A stretch of 64,000 nt of DNA from Candidatus Fermentibacterota bacterium (lineage in GTDB: Bacteria; Fermentibacterota; Fermentibacteria; Fermentibacterales; JCC-6): assembly GCA_030609965.1 (NCBI GenBank), contig JAUWSQ010000006.1:1-64000 (forward strand), given 5' to 3'. The translations under genes were made by a program, and so were the position numbers. Below the pieces are notes generated by a model. The model ran no database searches. It was given only the letters and a program-made list of their open reading frames with translations, and was not told the DNA's origin. Within the stretch, counting starts at the first letter, position 1. Each line of letters starts with the position of its first letter. Of this stretch, positions 21,133-28,570 are shown piece by piece.

Positions 21133-21966
21133 ATGAAATTTGTTGGCATCTTGTGTGTTCTAACCTCCGCAATTGCCTTTGCAGACGCGGATCACCTCCT
21201 TCTTACAGAACTCTGTGATACCCCAACCGATGGTGAATTCATAGAGATCTACAACCCCACAGCATCACCAGTTTCATTGTCATATATACATATCTGTGAT
21301 CTATACGGCGACACATCGGCTACTGTCGAGCAGTTCTATCCTCAAATTGCCCTCGGAGCGATTACTCCCCAGAACACTTCAGATTTCCTTGTAAAATTCC
21401 CCTTTGGTGACGAGATACCCCCTGGTGAAGTGATCGTTATAGCAATGAGCGGAACTGCATTTGAAGCGACTTACGGATTACAGGCCGATTACGATATCTT
21501 GGGCACCGGTGGGGGTGCAACTCAGATGACTGTTCCTGCAAACGGCTTCGCAGGATCATCTGCCGGTCTTACCAACTCTGGCGAGACTGTTACCCTCTTC
21601 TCTTACGATGACTCTTCCGACAGCGACGATCTCTGTTACGATATCGATTACGCTGTCTGGGGAAATGATCCTGGTGAATTCGTGGATAAAACAGGTATAA
21701 CCATCAACTCTTCCACATACCTGAATGACATTCCATGGGCCAGCCAGGATGCCATTTATTCTGAGGGGCATACTTACGGATTAACTTTCCAGAGAGTGGA
21801 TATGGATGAGGGAACGGAGACTCTTACTGGCGGAAACGGTATAACCGGCCACGATGAAACCAGCGAGAATCTCAGCGTAACCTGGCTGCAGGGCGATCCT
21901 ACTCCCGGTTACCTTTACACCGCTCTCCAGAGAGAAACCTGGGGTGCGATCAAGACCATTTTCTAG
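21133..21966 (+). CDS. Secreted lamin-tail domain (LTD) protein with C-terminal TWGxIKxxF tag
   Basis: 277 residues. A signal peptide (MKFVGILCVLTSAIAFADA) is followed by a lamin-tail-like Ig domain: LLLTELCDTPTDGEFIEIYN, PPGEVIVIAMSG, TNSGETVTLFSYDDSSD and LTFQRVDMDEG are the usual strands of bacterial LTD proteins. These are found on secreted, cell-surface or nuclease proteins; the domain alone gives no enzyme activity. The last nine residues, TWGAIKTIF, match the end of the unrelated protein at 23581. AAAGGAAGG just upstream supports ATG 21133; a longer frame from 21064 is rejected. A strong terminator follows. Confidence 0.85.
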   Translation: MKFVGILCVLTSAIAFADADHLLLTELCDTPTDGEFIEIYNPTASPVSLSYIHICDLYGDTSATVEQFYPQIALGAITPQNTSDFLVKFPFGDEIPPGEVIVIAMSGTAFEATYGLQADYDILGTGGGATQMTVPANGFAGSSAGLTNSGETVTLFSYDDSSDSDDLCYDIDYAVWGNDPGEFVDKTGITINSSTYLNDIPWASQDAIYSEGHTYGLTFQRVDMDEGTETLTGGNGITGHDETSENLSVTWLQGDPTPGYLYTALQRETWGAIKTIF

Positions 21967-21990
21967 TGTAGTATAAATATTCAAGTACTT

Positions 21991-22018
21991 AAGGGGACAT
22001 GAAAAATCATGTCCCCTT
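21991..22018. terminator. Bidirectional intrinsic terminator
   Basis: Perfect 12-bp stem AAGGGGACATGA / TCATGTCCCCTT with an AAAA loop, between the convergent LTD and lipoprotein genes. Confidence 0.85.
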
Positions 22019-22044
22019 TACTGTATCTGAAAGAATTGTTTTAA

Positions 22045-22716
22045 TTAGTAGGTTATAGCAAGCCCTGCCAGTATCATGCTTCTTGAGATATCAAGCGGTA
22101 TGGTGAACTGAAAGAGTATGGATTCGGGGAGGTATGCTATATTCTCATTCGGGCTGCCCGGAGGCTTCAGCTCGTACTTGCAACCAAGACGGATGCATGC
22201 AAAAAAAGTGTTGTCAACGGAATCCCAGTCATGAGAGCCATCCTCAGATTCAGGAATATTGGCCATATCCGGACCGTATCCTACGTCACTCCCGGCAAAA
22301 ACCTCAAGGTCTCTGTCGAACATGTGTCCCGCGCAAAGGGACAGCCGAGGAAGCATTACCTGCATCGGAATCACGTAGTTCATGTTAAGCATTGCAGACA
22401 GTGCCGTTGGATCAGCAGGATTCAAAAAATTATACTTTACCATGGGACCCACACCGTACCCGAAGGAAGATACTCCAATGTCTATCCTGTCGGTTGCTCC
22501 GATGGCGAAATCCGCTGTGGGATAGGCTTCAAGGAAGTCAATCCTGTTCTCTTCGGCCTCCCGCTTCGATTCAGCTGAGAAATAAGCCGGCAGGGTAACT
22601 CCACCGGTTATCGTAATGTGGTTCTTCCCCAGAGTATGAGCCCCCTGCATAACCCCGTAGTAGCATGAGGAAAAGAGTAGTGTGAAAAACATAAAGGCAA
22701 TAGCAAATTTGAGCAT
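22045..22716 (-). CDS. Predicted lipoprotein, outer-membrane barrel-like
   Basis: 223 residues. The N-terminus MLKFAIAFMFFTLLFSSC ends in a lipobox-like LFSSC, so lipid attachment at C18 is predicted. The rest is rich in alternating polar and hydrophobic strands (HITITGGVTLPAYF, FAIGATDRIDIGVSSFGYG, SILFQFTIPLDI) and ends in LAGLAITY with a terminal aromatic residue, as in small outer-membrane barrels. No family name is recognised. AGGAG 5 bases before the ATG supports the start. It is divergent from elbB. Confidence 0.7.
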   Translation of the reverse strand: MLKFAIAFMFFTLLFSSCYYGVMQGAHTLGKNHITITGGVTLPAYFSAESKREAEENRIDFLEAYPTADFAIGATDRIDIGVSSFGYGVGPMVKYNFLNPADPTALSAMLNMNYVIPMQVMLPRLSLCAGHMFDRDLEVFAGSDVGYGPDMANIPESEDGSHDWDSVDNTFFACIRLGCKYELKPPGSPNENIAYLPESILFQFTIPLDISRSMILAGLAITY

Positions 22717-22853
22717 TTCAACTCCTTTATTTCAGTTGTGGTAAAGATACATTACTGATTCAAATCGGCAATGGCCCCGGGTGCTGTGGACTGCGGGAGA
22801 TTCATTTAGTATCACTTGAGTCTGAAGATATTTGTAATAACCTGGAGGATAGC

Positions 22854-23504
22854 ATGGGAAAGAAAATCGCTTTTGTGTTAAGTGGGTGCGGAGTGAAGGA
22901 TGGTTCGGAAATACACGAAGCTGTTGCCGCGCTGATAGCCCTCGACAGAGCGGGTTACGAAGTCATCTTCACGGCACCAGATGTACAGCAGGCTGCCACC
23001 GTTGATCACAGCACAGAAAACGCCGAGTTGGTGTCCAGAAATGCACTCAGAGAGGGAGCCAGAATCGCCAGGGGCAGCATCACACCCCTATCAGATCTAA
23101 GGTCGGAAGATTACGATGCTGTAGTGTTTCCCGGGGGGTTCGGGGCTGCTCTTACTTTATGCTCCTTCGCTTCGGACGGCCCCGAATGCTCCGTGAATCC
23201 CGAAGTAGAAAGACTGATAAACGAGGCTCTTCTATCCAGAAAACCTATAGCGGCCATGTGTATAGCTCCTGTGATTCTGGCGAGGACGATACCCGGGGCA
23301 AAACTGACCATAGGCAGCCATCCCGAAACAGCCGCTGCCATCAGCGCGATGGGAGCCGTTCATGTGAATTGTTCGGTGAAAGAGTCCGTTGTTGATCTGG
23401 ACAGAAAACTGGTGACAACGCCGGCTTATATGCTCGCTAGCGGCCCTGCGGAGGTTTTCGAGGGCGCTTTGAGCATGGTTGATAAACTGGGAGAACTTTT
23501 CTGA
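22854..23504 (+). CDS. elbB: ElbB/ES1 family glyoxalase-like protein
   Basis: 216 residues, the normal ElbB length, of the class I glutamine amidotransferase/DJ-1 superfamily. Visible features are KIAFVLSGCGVKDGSEIHE, the family-typical PGGFGAALTL and the nucleophile-elbow region KPIAAMCIAPVILA with the reactive cysteine. ElbB proteins are reported to have weak glyoxalase activity and a loose link to isoprenoid synthesis; the physiological substrate is unclear. GGAGG precedes the ATG. Monocistronic, ending in a strong hairpin terminator. Confidence 0.92.
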   Translation: MGKKIAFVLSGCGVKDGSEIHEAVAALIALDRAGYEVIFTAPDVQQAATVDHSTENAELVSRNALREGARIARGSITPLSDLRSEDYDAVVFPGGFGAALTLCSFASDGPECSVNPEVERLINEALLSRKPIAAMCIAPVILARTIPGAKLTIGSHPETAAAISAMGAVHVNCSVKESVVDLDRKLVTTPAYMLASGPAEVFEGALSMVDKLGELF

Positions 23505-23514
23505 TACCTCGCGA

Positions 23515-23561
23515 TTGAGAAAGAGCCGGGGAAGTTTTTTATGCTTCCCCGGCTTTCTCAA
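23515..23561. terminator. Intrinsic terminator, bidirectional
   Basis: An 18-bp stem with one 2-base bulge (TTGAGAAAG-AG-CCGGGGAAG at 23515-23534 pairing with 23544-23561) and a T-rich loop, between the convergent elbB and 23581 genes. Confidence 0.85.
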
Positions 23562-23580
23562 TGAAACAGGAATCAGTATT

Positions 23581-24180
23581 CTAGAATGCAGCTTTTATAT
23601 CACCCCAGGTTGTATTTTCAAAAGCCACCACATCACCAGGCAAGTAAATTGTCGATCCATCAGGAGCGATAATGGTCATGTCATCTATCCACGCGCCGTC
23701 GCCAACTGCTGAATAAATCCGAGCCTCTATAACAAGGTTCTGCAAGCTGTCCGCAGTGGCTTCCCATGACCAGGAAGTGAGATCCCAACCGGTTCCGGGC
23801 CCATAATCACTGTTGCCTCCCGCTGACCAATAATGAACGTTAAGACTATCGGGATTTGAGACCCAGCGGCCCCAGATTCTACATGATGGTGATGCTCCTG
23901 GAGTTGTATCGTAACGCCAGAATTCAGCATCAACTGTATCTCCTACCTGAAGTCCCGTTATTACAGCAATGAATGCTGCGGATGTTGCCTTACCACTGGC
24001 TTCCTCAATATATAGAGACTGAGATCCTCCATGAACAGGATCTGTTGATATCTGGGCTATTACATCTATATGTTCTCCCAGAATTGTCTCGGTGCCTTCC
24101 CAGCCGTAGTTCTCGGTGATGTCAGCGGAGGCCATCTGTGTGGCCACCAGAAGCAGCAGAACGATAAAAACATTTCTCAT
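23581..24180 (-). CDS. Secreted jelly-roll-like protein with C-terminal TWGxIKxxF tag
   Basis: 199 residues from ATG 24180, which has GGAAGGA upstream. The signal peptide is MRNVFIVLLLLVATQMASA. The mature part looks like a carbohydrate-binding-type jelly roll (NYGWEGTETILGEH, VHGGSQSLYIEE, VDAEFWRYDTTPG, AWIDDMTIIAPDGS), a pattern common in secreted proteins of FCB-group relatives. No catalytic residues are recognised. It ends TTWGDIKAAF, matching the tail of the LTD protein at 21133 although the domains are unrelated. A longer frame from 24255 is rejected. Confidence 0.75.
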   Translation of the reverse strand: MRNVFIVLLLLVATQMASADITENYGWEGTETILGEHIDVIAQISTDPVHGGSQSLYIEEASGKATSAAFIAVITGLQVGDTVDAEFWRYDTTPGASPSCRIWGRWVSNPDSLNVHYWSAGGNSDYGPGTGWDLTSWSWEATADSLQNLVIEARIYSAVGDGAWIDDMTIIAPDGSTIYLPGDVVAFENTTWGDIKAAF

Positions 24181-24346: not shown

Positions 24347-24985
24347 CTATGTGCGGCTTTTATCGCGTTTTTCCTCCACCATAGCTTTTACCTTCATCAG
24401 TCTCGTCAGATTTCCTCGTTCAATTTCATCCAGTTTCAGCCGGATTGCCCTGATAGCTTCCTCCAGTTCTGGTATCAGCTTGTATTCAAGGGCGTTCACC
24501 CTCCTCCTTGTAGAATCTATCTCTCTCGCAAGGAGGCTGATGGCCTTCTCGTGCTCCGCAAGTTTAATGATCCGCGGGAGAAGTTCCTTATAGACCCGCA
24601 GCGACTCATCAAGCTCGACAGGTGTGTCGAACATTCCGTAATTTCGCACGTTGCCCTCTATCGAAACCTCAAAGACGGGAAGTATCAGGTTCATTATCTT
24701 CCTGGTGGAAGTGCTGACAGTAGCCTGTGCTCCGGGGTACCGGAGCGCATCAAGCAGCCCCGGTTCCGTCATGGCAGCCCTTGCGAAAAGAAACTCACCG
24801 TAGGCAATGCTGAGTTCCTTCTCCAATGCCTCCCGCGCTCCTTCGTAGTCCGCGATAAGTATCTTGAACTGACGCATGAGTTCGTCCAGTTTATCCTTAA
24901 GAAGCTTGTGCCCTCTCTGCGCAAGTTTTACCTTCTTGCGCTTCCCAAGCAGCTCCATCCGGGTTGCACTGACAACTGCAGCCAT
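24347..24985 (-). CDS. ntpD: V/A-type ATPase subunit D
   Basis: 212 residues, mostly one long antiparallel coiled coil (N-terminal helix with VSATRMELLGKRKKVKLAQRGH, C-terminal RRRVNALEYKLIPELEEAIRAI), as in the central rotor shaft subunit D. It turns inside the A3B3 head and carries torque to the rotor ring. It is the last gene of the ATPase operon and overlaps ntpB by one base. No convincing terminator follows. Confidence 0.95.
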   Translation of the reverse strand: MAAVVSATRMELLGKRKKVKLAQRGHKLLKDKLDELMRQFKILIADYEGAREALEKELSIAYGEFLFARAAMTEPGLLDALRYPGAQATVSTSTRKIMNLILPVFEVSIEGNVRNYGMFDTPVELDESLRVYKELLPRIIKLAEHEKAISLLAREIDSTRRRVNALEYKLIPELEEAIRAIRLKLDEIERGNLTRLMKVKAMVEEKRDKSRT

Positions 24986-26385
24986 CAGCCGGGTCCATCT
25001 TCCTCTGAAACGGGCCAGTACTTATCGAGCCGGGCTGGATCTATTCTCTTCATCTCGTCTCTTGGCAGAAGCTTCAAAAGTTCCCAGCCGAGGTCGAGGG
25101 TCTCTTCTATGTTTCTGTTCTCGTGCTCTCCCTGACTGATGTACCTGTTCTCGTACTCTTCGGCGAATTTAAGATACTTCTGGTCAAGAGGGCTCAGTGC
25201 GGCGGCTCCGAGTATTACCGCAAGCTCCCTGGAATCTTTCCCTGCGGAGTAGGCTGCCATGAGCTGGTTGAAAAGGTCAGCATGATCCTCACGGGTTTTG
25301 CCCTTACCAATTCCCTTGTCCTTCAGCCTTGAGAGTGACTCCATAACATCCATTGGAGGATAGATACCCTTCTTATGAAGTTCTCTGTTGAGTATGAGCT
25401 GCCCCTCTGTGATGTAACCGGTAAGGTCGGGTATTGGATGTGTCTTGTCGTCTTCGGGCATTGTAAGAATAGGGATCTGTGTTATTGATCCCTTCCTGCC
25501 TTTGATCCTTCCCGCACGTTCGTAAATTGAGGATAGGTCGGTGTAGAGGTATCCGGGGTATCCCCTTCTTCCCGGAACTTCCTTCCTCGCTGCAGATATC
25601 TCCCTCAGAGCATCACAGTAGTTGGTCATATCCGTAAGAATAACAAGGATATGCATATCCTTTTCGTAAGCAAGGTACTCGGCAGCGGTCAGGGCCATTC
25701 TTGGGGTTGAGATACGTTCAATGGCAGGATCACTTGCAAGGTTCATGAACACCACCGCCCTGTCCATGGCGCCAGTCTTCCTGAAATCACGGATGAAGTA
25801 ATCGGCCTCCTCGAATGTTATTCCCATAGCGGCGAAAACAACCGCAAAGCTTTCCCCCTCGCCAACGACCCTGGCCTGCCTGGCTATCTGTGCCGCGACG
25901 GCGGAGTGGGGAAGTCCGCTTCCGCTGAAAACAGGGAGTTTCTGCCCCCTGACAAGCGTATTGATACCGTCTATTGAACTGAAGCCCGTCTGAATGAATT
26001 CTGCAGGGTAATCTCTTGCATAAGGATTTATAGGAGCTCCGTTGATGTTCTTCATCTTCTCAGGAACAATGGGTGGTGCCGTATCGAATGGAGCCCTTGG
26101 CCTTCCCTGGCCGTCAAAGACTCTGCCCAGCATCTCTTCTGAAACCCCGAGTTCAACCTGTTTGCCAAGAAACCGCACCTTGCTTTCTGCGATGCCCGTT
26201 CCGCTGCTGCCCTCAAAAAGCTGGACCAAGGCCATGCGGCTGTCGATTTCGAGTACTTTACCGTGCCGGATTTCTCCATCGGGAAGCTCTATTTCAACGA
26301 GTTCCTCATATGCGACTCCCTCGACCCCGTCTACCAGCATCAGGGGGCCGGATATCTCTACGGTCGTAGTGTATTCTCTTATCAT
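24985..26385 (-). CDS. ntpB: V/A-type ATPase subunit B
   Basis: 466 residues, normal length. It has the beta-barrel N-terminus ([19 protein letters not shown]) and the non-catalytic nucleotide-domain features of subunit B, including [13 protein letters not shown] in place of a Walker A loop, [22 protein letters not shown] and [12 protein letters not shown]. It alternates with subunit A in the head and shapes the catalytic interface. It begins 12 bases after ntpA and overlaps ntpD. Confidence 0.97.
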
Positions 26386-26397
26386 ATCCCCGCCCTC

Positions 26398-28167
26398 CTA
26401 AGCAGTCTGCTCTTTTTCGATCAGATCGTTGATCTGCGAATTAACATGTTCCTTTATTGCTTCAATATCGTCAAGGTGATCTTCTGGAATGTAGCTCATT
26501 CTTGCGATCTCTTCCTTAAGCGGGAGCTCGAAAAGATCTCCTGGCGATACACTGCCGCGGATGGCTTTTCTCATTTCCGCGTTTGTATGCATTATGACTT
26601 CCATCATTAATTTCTGTTTTACTATCGACGTGTATGTGTCTACCTCATGGAAGGCGTTCTGATGCAGGAAATCCTCTCTGAGAGATCTGGCAGTGAAGAG
26701 AATGAGCTGATCTTCAGGAGACAGCGACTCAGCTCCAACCAACCTGGCTATCTCAAGCAGGTTCGCCTCCCGCTGTAGCAGAGATATGGCTTCCTTCACC
26801 ATTGGTACCCATTCCGGACCGAGCGCTTTGTCGTAATACTCCTTGAGGTTATCTGTGTAGAGTGAATAGCTGTCAAGCCAGCCAATCGCCGGGAAATGTC
26901 TTGCGTATGCCAGCTTCGCCTGGAGGCTCCAGAATACTTTAACAACCCTGAGAGTTGCCTGGACCACGGGGTCCGAAAGGTCTCCCCCCGCAGGACTCAC
27001 CGCTCCAACAACTGTCAGGGCTCCGTTCCTGTCCCCGCCTCTACATTTCACATTACCGGCCCGTTCGTAGAATTCGGCTATCCTGGTGCCAAGATATGCG
27101 GGATAGCCCTCCTCTCCCGGCATCTCTTCAAGCCTTCCGGACATTTCCCTCATGGCTTCCGCCCATCTGCTTGTGGAATCCGCCATAAGAGCGACGGAAT
27201 ACCCCATGTCCCTGAAATATTCCCCTATTGTAATTCCGGTATAAACACTTGCTTCCCTTGCGGCCACAGGCATGTTACTGGTATTGGCCACAAGAACAGT
27301 TCTGTTAATAAGCGGCTCTCCGCTCTTTGGATCCTCAAGCTCCGGGAATTCCTGCAGAACGTCGGTCATTTCGTTACCGCGTTCTCCGCACCCGACGTAG
27401 ATCACCATCTCGGCATCCGCCCATTTAGCAAGCTGGTGCTGGATAACCGTTTTTCCGCTGCCGAAAGGACCGGGAACGCATGCGGTTCCTCCCTTACCCA
27501 GTGGAAAGAACGCGTCTATGACTCTCTGTCCAGTAATGAGTGGTTCCTCCGGTGCTTTTTTCTCTGCAATAGGTCTTGGTTTTCTCACCGGCCAATTGTG
27601 GTACATGGGCAGTTCAAGGATCGAGCCATCTGATATTTTCAGTTTTGCTATGATCGTATCGATATTGAATTTTCCGGCTTCGCTCATCCATACAATCTCC
27701 CCGGATACCTCTGGAGGGACCATGATTCTATGCGTAATAATATTTGTTTCGGGAACTTCTCCTAAAACCTCGCCGCCGGTTACGTTCAGGCCGACAGCTG
27801 CGACAGGAATGAAATCCCATTCCTTCGCATGATCAAGGCCTCTTATGCCTATTCCACGAGTGATCCAGTCGCCCGCCTCTTTGCGTATTTCATCAAGAGG
27901 CCGCTGAATACCGTCATAAATAGCCGTTACAAGTCCGGGTCCAAGCTCGACCGATAGGGGTTTTCCTGTAGCTTCTACTGGATCTCCCGGCTTCAGGCCT
28001 CCGGTTTCCTCGTAGACCTGAATCGATGCTTTCTCACCCTTAAGCTCTATTATTTCGCCTATTAATTTGTAATCGGATACGTACACCAGGTCGTACATCC
28101 TGGCATCCTTCATACCGTCCGCAACGACCAGCGGACCTGCTATCTTGTCAATCGTTCCCCTTGTCAT
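26398..28167 (-). CDS. ntpA: V/A-type ATPase catalytic subunit A
   Basis: 589 residues. Walker A is GPFGSGKT at 233-240, with the extra non-homologous insertion domain before it (about 110-195) that separates A subunits from F-type beta. SVALMADSTSRWAEAMREMSGRLEEMPGEEGYPAYLG holds the arginine-rich and catalytic segments in shorter pieces such as STSRWAEAMRE. It hydrolyses ATP to drive ion pumping, or runs in reverse for synthesis. A GGAGG lies upstream of the ATG. A hairpin separates it from ntpF. Confidence 0.98.
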   Translation of the reverse strand: MTRGTIDKIAGPLVVADGMKDARMYDLVYVSDYKLIGEIIELKGEKASIQVYEETGGLKPGDPVEATGKPLSVELGPGLVTAIYDGIQRPLDEIRKEAGDWITRGIGIRGLDHAKEWDFIPVAAVGLNVTGGEVLGEVPETNIITHRIMVPPEVSGEIVWMSEAGKFNIDTIIAKLKISDGSILELPMYHNWPVRKPRPIAEKKAPEEPLITGQRVIDAFFPLGKGGTACVPGPFGSGKTVIQHQLAKWADAEMVIYVGCGERGNEMTDVLQEFPELEDPKSGEPLINRTVLVANTSNMPVAAREASVYTGITIGEYFRDMGYSVALMADSTSRWAEAMREMSGRLEEMPGEEGYPAYLGTRIAEFYERAGNVKCRGGDRNGALTVVGAVSPAGGDLSDPVVQATLRVVKVFWSLQAKLAYARHFPAIGWLDSYSLYTDNLKEYYDKALGPEWVPMVKEAISLLQREANLLEIARLVGAESLSPEDQLILFTARSLREDFLHQNAFHEVDTYTSIVKQKLMMEVIMHTNAEMRKAIRGSVSPGDLFELPLKEEIARMSYIPEDHLDDIEAIKEHVNSQINDLIEKEQTA

Positions 28168-28195
28168 CCGTCGCCTCCGGTGGGTTGCGGGTTAT

Positions 28196-28218
28196 AGGAG
28201 GCTGTCCGACAACCTCCT
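28196..28218. repeat. Short hairpin between ntpF and ntpA, similar to the 7728 element ends
   Basis: AGGAGG (28196-28201) and CCTCCT (28213-28218) pair around an 11-base loop CTGTCCGACAA. The plus strand matches the terminal repeat at 7871-7889 (read on the minus strand) at 15 of 19 positions. It may be an attenuating hairpin setting the A subunit level, or a remnant of the same small element family. Confidence 0.45.
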
Positions 28219-28237
28219 AAGCGGGTCTTACTCACGT

Positions 28238-28561
28238 CTATTCTTCGGACATCAGATCAACACCGACTGCCTTTATGATTAGTTCCCTTATCGTATCTTC
28301 TCCCCGTCTCTGGGTGCCCGTTATACCGGGAAGAACAACAACCGATGGTATTGCCATATGAACCGTTTCGTCTATCTGATCCTGAAGATTGTCCATCATA
28401 TCCTCAGTTATCATTATGATGGAAGTCTTCTCCTTCACAAGCCTTGCGAATTGTTCACGGGCTTCATTCGAATTTACCGGAACTACTGTTTCCACTCCCA
28501 ATGCCCGGAATCCGAGAACCGAGTCCGCATCACCTATGAACGCAATCTTCCCCTCAGCCAT
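28238..28561 (-). CDS. ntpF: V/A-type ATPase subunit F
   Basis: 107 residues from ATG 28561, which has AGGAGG in front; a TTG at 28564 is less likely. GKIAFIGDADSVLGFRALGVE is the standard opening of subunit F, followed by SIIMITEDMMDNL and PSVVVLPGITG. Subunit F binds subunit D on the central shaft and modulates activity. The adjacent C subunit ends 9 bases upstream. Confidence 0.95.
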   Translation of the reverse strand: MAEGKIAFIGDADSVLGFRALGVETVVPVNSNEAREQFARLVKEKTSIIMITEDMMDNLQDQIDETVHMAIPSVVVLPGITGTQRRGEDTIRELIIKAVGVDLMSEE

Positions 28562-28570
28562 CAAAGCCTC

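Follow-up and report, generated by a model that had tools for sequence, protein, structure and literature searches.

The window analysed here comprises positions 1 to 64,000 of contig JAUWSQ010000006.1 from a Candidatus Fermentibacterota bacterium (GenBank assembly GCA_030609965.1), and the element in question is a short C-terminal sequence, hereafter the tag, shared by two proteins encoded within it. An earlier note on this DNA had placed the tails TWGAIKTIF and TWGDIKAAF directly before the stop codons of two proteins with signal peptides and otherwise unrelated domains, and translation finds the open reading frames (ORFs) and their tails exactly as described. The only tag matches in the window are those of these two ORFs, whose features are as follows.

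21133..21966, plus strand: tagged exported protein 1, with a signal peptide, a lamin-tail (LTD) domain and the tag, C-terminus ALQRETWGAIKTIF (translation; PF00932).
21922..21963, plus strand: 14-residue tag of protein 1, core TWGAIKTIF at 21937-21963, abutting a TAG stop codon (pattern match, translation, and conservation profile from position -13).
23581..24180, minus strand: tagged exported protein 2, with a signal peptide, a CBM22/CBM4-like jelly-roll domain and the tag, C-terminus AFENTTWGDIKAAF (translation; AlphaFold2 model; Foldseek against the PDB).
23584..23625, minus strand: 14-residue tag of protein 2, core TWGDIKAAF at 23584-23610, a predicted short helix after a low-confidence linker (translation; AlphaFold2).

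Both proteins begin with a hydrophobic, signal-peptide-like segment. Protein 1 matches the LTD family PF00932 with an E-value of 3e-7 and 31.2 bits, just below the cut-off of 34.3, and this is the only domain match in a Pfam search of the two proteins, which found none in protein 2. An AlphaFold2 model of protein 2, built with 12 relatives, predicts a confident beta-sandwich, after which residues 185-192 form a low-confidence linker and residues 192-198, over the tag, a short helix, and the sandwich resembles carbohydrate-binding modules of families 22, 4 and 16 when compared with the PDB by Foldseek. Since protein 1 carries an LTD domain and protein 2 a predicted jelly roll, the bodies of the two proteins are considered unrelated.

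The tag is not restricted to this pair. In the source genome (2.62 Mb in 81 contigs, 80.7% complete) the strict pattern TWGxIK before a stop codon is matched eight times, against no match for the reversed pattern, and all eight belong to ORFs that open with a signal-peptide-like segment and whose bodies are for the most part dissimilar; with a looser pattern four further tails are found, WADIKTIF (L011), WGELKASF (L032), WATIKTVF (L035) and WGGIKVLF (L076). A search with TGGGSNNNNNTNAARNNNNNNTWYTRR was extended to 42 genomes of Candidatus Fermentibacteria, representing nine genera and three families, with the window in the Aegiribacteria group; a scan of public genome contigs likewise pointed to Candidatus Fermentibacteria, including Aegiribacteria and Sabulitectum. 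Every one of the 42 contains matches, from 1 to 33 each, and the per-genome counts sum to 609 as opposed to 11 for the reversed pattern. The scan proposed in the earlier note recovers the motif on many other secreted proteins of the source genome and the phylum, contrary to the first of the two findings that the note had named as refuting its proposal, and the counts uphold its contention that a chance match is unlikely.

The tag has the consensus [AS]-L-[EDQ]-x-x-[TS]-W-[GA]-x-[ILV]-K-x-x-[FY]-COOH, of which TWGxIKxxF constitutes the nine-residue core. In a conservation profile built from 147 Fermentibacteria tails, with positions counted from the last residue as 0, the conserved positions are A/S at -13, L at -12, E/D/Q at -11, T at -8, W at -7, G/A at -6, I at -4, K at -3, T/A/S at -2 and F at 0 (144 of the 147 tails). 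The tryptophan and lysine are invariant because the selection pattern fixed both; T, L, E and the preference at -2 were not all imposed by it. Upstream of the last 14 residues no conservation was detected in these tails. Across 767 kb of fetched DNA from Fermentibacteria, ORFs of at least 100 residues contained 76 distinct instances of [TS]W[GA]x[ILV]K, all 76 of them C-terminal, and no internal copy; the fetched loci were partly picked for their tag content, a choice of which the absence of internal copies is independent. Three residues follow the lysine in 71 of the 76 occurrences and four in the other 5. This minority form (as in TWGHIKTLMQ and TWGQIKTLLH), which the strict pattern misses, is found at L068:893-1576, L125:9317-10000, L109:2-319, L085:4707-5303 and L127:3462-4142, and one such tail, SWAFIKAFVQ (L369:6813-7421), is also encoded by genome G014, to which we return below.

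Export signals accompany the tag well beyond the window. A signal-peptide-like N-terminus, as called by a simple hydropathy rule and not by a trained predictor, is present in 82 of 96 distinct tagged ORFs compared with 117 of 297 untagged neighbouring ORFs, and five of the 14 tagged ORFs that lack one run off a contig or locus edge. When 203 tagged proteins with signal-peptide-like starts, drawn from all groups, were compared by blastp with the last 22 residues removed, they fell into 42 unrelated body clusters. Among 40 cluster representatives, Pfam recognized eleven different families with one member each, including DUF4350 and the surface-type LamG, NPCBM, CBM9, CBM96 and LTD, the kind of domain that the earlier note had proposed looking for on tagged proteins. 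Among the same 40 representatives no sorting domain or sorting model of Pfam or NCBIfam matched the tag, and a search of the open-licence literature for the motif strings found nothing relevant. A longer homologous domain shared by the tagged proteins, which the earlier note had named as the other finding that would overturn its proposal, is ruled out by the 42 unrelated clusters together with the confinement of conservation to the last 14 residues. The tag thus has the sequence features of a C-terminal sorting tag, as a common short sequence that ends many unrelated proteins bearing N-terminal export signals.

Outside the Fermentibacteria, the tag is matched at the ends of ORFs with signal-peptide-like starts in two genomes of Coatesbacteria (16 and 28 matches) and five of Poribacteria (7 to 34 per genome), with reversed-pattern controls of 0-3 in these two groups. 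The tails take the form V-E-x-T-[TS]-W-G-x-I-K-A-x-F in Coatesbacteria and A-V-[ED]-P-x-G-K-L-x-T-T-W-G-x-[LI]-K-x-x-Y in Poribacteria, and the linker before the tag core differs by phylum. Four matches were found in the unclassified bacterium SMBSF40. Genomes of Eisenbacteria, Gemmatimonadota/Latescibacterota and Rhodothermia contain one to three strict matches each, and because a broader tail pattern gave no excess over control in them, these groups do not appear to use the tag broadly. The earlier note had proposed a terminal code recognized by an export or anchoring system of this lineage; the short terminal code on exported proteins stands, but it is not confined to the lineage. We infer that a machine recognizes it.

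The earlier note had also suggested looking for a gene that co-occurs with the tag, and such a gene is found in that for SprA (TIGR04189), the outer-membrane translocon of the type IX secretion system (T9SS). SprA was detected in 41 of the 42 Fermentibacteria genomes, over the cut-off in 40 and as a C-terminal fragment in the other, whereas the 14 control genomes had none. The SprA of the source genome scores 415 bits and matches the solved SprA 6H3I by sequence (E 8e-26), and the homologs in Coatesbacteria and SMBSF40 are likewise over the cut-off. G014, which is 98% complete, is the sole Fermentibacteria genome without SprA, and it encodes one strict-pattern tagged protein, a genuine one, compared with 8 to 29 in other members of its genus. 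In two Poribacteria genomes, sprA is directly preceded by a tagged gene of the same orientation. Two genes for PilB-type ATPases lie directly after sprA in Fermentibacteria (L276:9498-18890), the first of which is well conserved in most of the phylum and lost in G014.

Other T9SS components accompany SprA. The PorV family is represented in all 29 genomes searched. A PorU-like C25 peptidase, which in G014 scores 320 bits against NF033707 (below the cut-off of 420) and 178 bits against PF01364, adjoins a PorV ortholog in that genome, a gene order repeated in G007, and this ortholog clusters with the PorV of Rhodothermia (support 100/96). A second PorV-family barrel, PorV-A, which matches solved PorV by sequence (E 4e-24) and by fold (8GL6_F, E 1e-14), is present in 38 of the 42 Fermentibacteria genomes and not in G014. 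Judged on SprA, the PorV family and the PorU-like peptidase, the tagged phyla appear to possess a T9SS, a link that no paper in the open-licence literature was found to make for Fermentibacteria or Coatesbacteria. Classical type A C-terminal domains (CTDs) are common in the same genomes, with 30 to 140 matches to TIGR04183, so that the tag would represent an additional signal and not a replacement.

The association of the tag with signal peptides, surface-type bodies, SprA and the presence of PorU and PorV, together with the features of known T9SS signals, suggests that the tag is probably a domain-less C-terminal secretion signal of the T9SS. Known signals of this system stand at the C-termini of cargo exported by Sec, and the final residues, among which is a conserved lysine, are critical; in HBP35 the targeting signal has been mapped to the last 22 residues (PMC11285876). 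We infer the recognition, translocation and cleavage of tagged proteins to proceed as follows. The proteins would cross the inner membrane by Sec via their N-terminal signal peptides, after which the body would fold while the tag remained apart from it as a linear tail, probably helical over a short stretch, as predicted for one family. The SprA translocon or a PorV-family barrel may then recognize the tail, as happens with the Ig-like CTD of Bacteroidota, and the protein would pass through SprA, a step suggested by co-occurrence, to be released or perhaps anchored, with the PorU-like C25 peptidase as the putative anchoring enzyme. Such a signal would occupy approximately 9-14 residues without a CTD, and the same cells would use ordinary type A CTDs as well.

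Several observations weigh against this reading. The co-loss of sprA and all but one tag is a single event, seen in G014, and coincides with other losses: this genome is reduced (1.9 Mb) and also lacks the pilus ATPase encoded beside sprA, yet it keeps PorU, PorV-B and 33 TIGR04183 matches. Genomes of another family of the order have SprA with only 3-8 tags each, so the one tag of G014 falls little short of their range. In Rhodothermia, genomes with full-length SprA contain one tag match each, all in one small family, and SprA alone therefore does not predict the tag. The SprA of Poribacteria is divergent (142 bits, below the cut-off of 200), and no tagged gene lies upstream of sprA in two other members of this phylum (G047 and G048). 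PorV-A was not found in the tag-bearing Fermentibacteria assemblies G004, G037 and G020 or in Poribacteria G047, and its clade takes in Rhodothermia and Eisenbacteria, lineages without the tag system; its candidacy as a dedicated tag receptor is weakened on both counts, and it is thus no tag-specific partner. Finally, the open-licence literature yielded no known T9SS signal as short or as helix-like as the tag.

Some of these points would also suit a separate sorting or anchoring pathway with a dedicated outer-membrane or periplasmic receptor or processing enzyme, present only incidentally in SprA-bearing phyla and working like the PEP-CTERM/exosortase idea without the membrane helix. We regard this as a rather doubtful though serious alternative, and its specific form, a pathway common to Fermentibacteria, Coatesbacteria and Poribacteria whose receptor is neither SprA nor a PorV-family barrel, as unlikely in similar degree. 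The tail is unlike any known T9SS signal, the abundance of ordinary CTDs in these genomes means that the T9SS already has a signal of its own, some SprA-bearing lineages are without the tag system, and the SprA link rests on a single co-loss. On the other side, no candidate receptor was found besides SprA and the PorV-family barrels (no unbiased gene-content comparison was made), and in this superphylum it is otherwise the T9SS that is characterized by C-terminal signals on cargo exported by Sec (PMC10202324, PMC11285876).

The tail could instead serve quality control as a site for a protease or chaperone that reads C-termini (PDZ/DegS-like or Tsp-like), or as a variant of the beta-signal of the beta-barrel assembly machinery (BAM), which we consider improbable. 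The near-invariant terminal phenylalanine recalls outer-membrane barrels and DegS ligands, and the hydrophobic moment of the nine-residue pattern slightly favours two-residue over helical periodicity. However, conservation at -12, -8, -7, -6, -4 and -3 extends beyond the last three residues, the two bodies in the window are, as modelled or annotated, not barrels, the barrels of the same genomes end differently (SprA in ...INF, PorV-A in ...GFAF), and AlphaFold predicts the tag of protein 2 as a helix and not a strand.

It is highly improbable that the tag is a substrate signal for type II secretion or for an exporter related to type IV pili, with its ATPase genes next to sprA. The sprA-linked PilB ortholog does adjoin sprA in the Fermentibacteria loci examined and is missing from G014, but G014 keeps another PilB/GspE paralog, and the ATPase as reader of the tag is weakened by Coatesbacteria G043, which has 28 tags without a close PilB ortholog (best identity 27%). 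We know of no linear C-terminal signal on type II substrates, and pilins use an N-terminal signal. Chance, or common ancestry of the protein ends, has negligible probability, as nothing but the expansion of some tagged families within genomes favours it against the excess over reversed controls, the unrelated bodies and the absence of internal copies.

A number of side observations concern the neighbourhood and relatives of these genes. In the window, V/A-type ATP synthase-like genes (subunits D, B, A and F; 24347-28564) adjoin the tagged genes, with no link seen. In Fermentibacteria, PorV-A adjoins an ExbB/ExbD/TonB set and a protein whose tail is PorZ/PorU-like, and ExbB and TonB stand at the same place beside PorV-A in Coatesbacteria (loci L318:12872-18477 and L325:4571-8099); the set could be a motor tied to this outer-membrane pathway. 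In the source genome, the genes for PorV-A and for a protein ending in a classical T9SS tail are separated by those of two GWxTD-domain proteins (L318:7008-9444). Syntrophaceae bacterium CSMAG_2795 (locus L170), a metagenome-assembled genome (MAG) that probably reflects Fermentibacteria contamination or misnaming, encodes close relatives of both the LTD and the jelly-roll protein of the window. The small Rhodothermia family (one member labelled Bacteroidetes) ends in RRTWGSIKAMF, occurs once per genome (loci L148, L162, L169 and L179) and is probably independent of the tag system. Loci L144, L153 and L190, from MAGs labelled Gemmatimonadaceae, Latescibacterota and 'bacterium', encode a protein on which both the tail, EEVTWGQIKAGF, and the signal peptide are near-identical, and are related MAGs under different names.

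The tag appears to be an address label, not previously described, that directs proteins across the outer membrane, and from its pattern one can predict exported proteins, probably displayed on the surface, in several uncultured phyla; most of these proteins lack annotation. If it is a T9SS signal, the machine could be addressed without a folded domain, by about nine to fourteen residues, and so minimal a handle would help to locate the binding site and to tag cargo; Fermentibacteria, Coatesbacteria and Poribacteria would join the lineages for the study of T9SS cargo. If it is not, the tag would mark an undescribed sorting pathway, and a pathway of its own would make it a new class of C-terminal protein address in outer-membrane bacteria.

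Like the PEP-CTERM, GlyGly-CTERM and LPXTG signals, the tag is a short C-terminal code on unrelated secreted proteins that was found by genome comparison. In those tails a signature is joined by a transmembrane helix and a cluster of basic residues, whereas the tag has neither a hydrophobic span nor a basic end, its phenylalanine being followed by the stop. Type B (TIGR04131/PF13585) and type C CTDs are also alternative C-terminal T9SS signals, but they are regions of approximately 100 residues or more, and neither had a sequence match to the tag among the 40 representatives; type B CTDs depend on PorP/SprF-like partners and not on PorV (PMC10202324, PMC12618676). The shortest T9SS signals found in the literature are CTDs of Prevotella intermedia, which span 43-60 residues with three beta-strands, retain the ordinary motifs B, D and E, coexist with long CTDs and have been modelled to bind PorV (PMC11969387). 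The tag is likewise short and found beside long signals but lacks their strands and their B, D and E motifs. T9SS signals have been described as domains of 70-100 residues, in contrast to short unstructured signals (PMC11285876), and type A CTDs in particular are Ig-like beta-sandwiches of this length with motifs A-E (PMC10202324, PMC11285876). The tag differs from these in its 9-14 residues, predicted short helix and lack of a domain, both kinds occurring in the same genomes; the model of protein 2 has a linker and short helix at the C-terminus and no CTD, and the type A models TIGR04183 and PF18962 matched none of the 40 representatives. The statement in the earlier note that known sorting tails look different holds for the form of PEP-CTERM, LPXTG and T9SS signals alike, but the T9SS, which it had set aside, is the best candidate reader of the tag. 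As with type A CTDs, the tag is C-terminal on diverse Sec-exported surface proteins of SprA-bearing phyla and has a lysine a few residues from the end, and in type A the terminal residues matter (PMC11285876). Since it departs from the definitions of type A, type B and PEP-CTERM signals, the tag is filed outside the known signal families, as a C-terminal sorting tag whose mode of action is most likely that of a T9SS signal.

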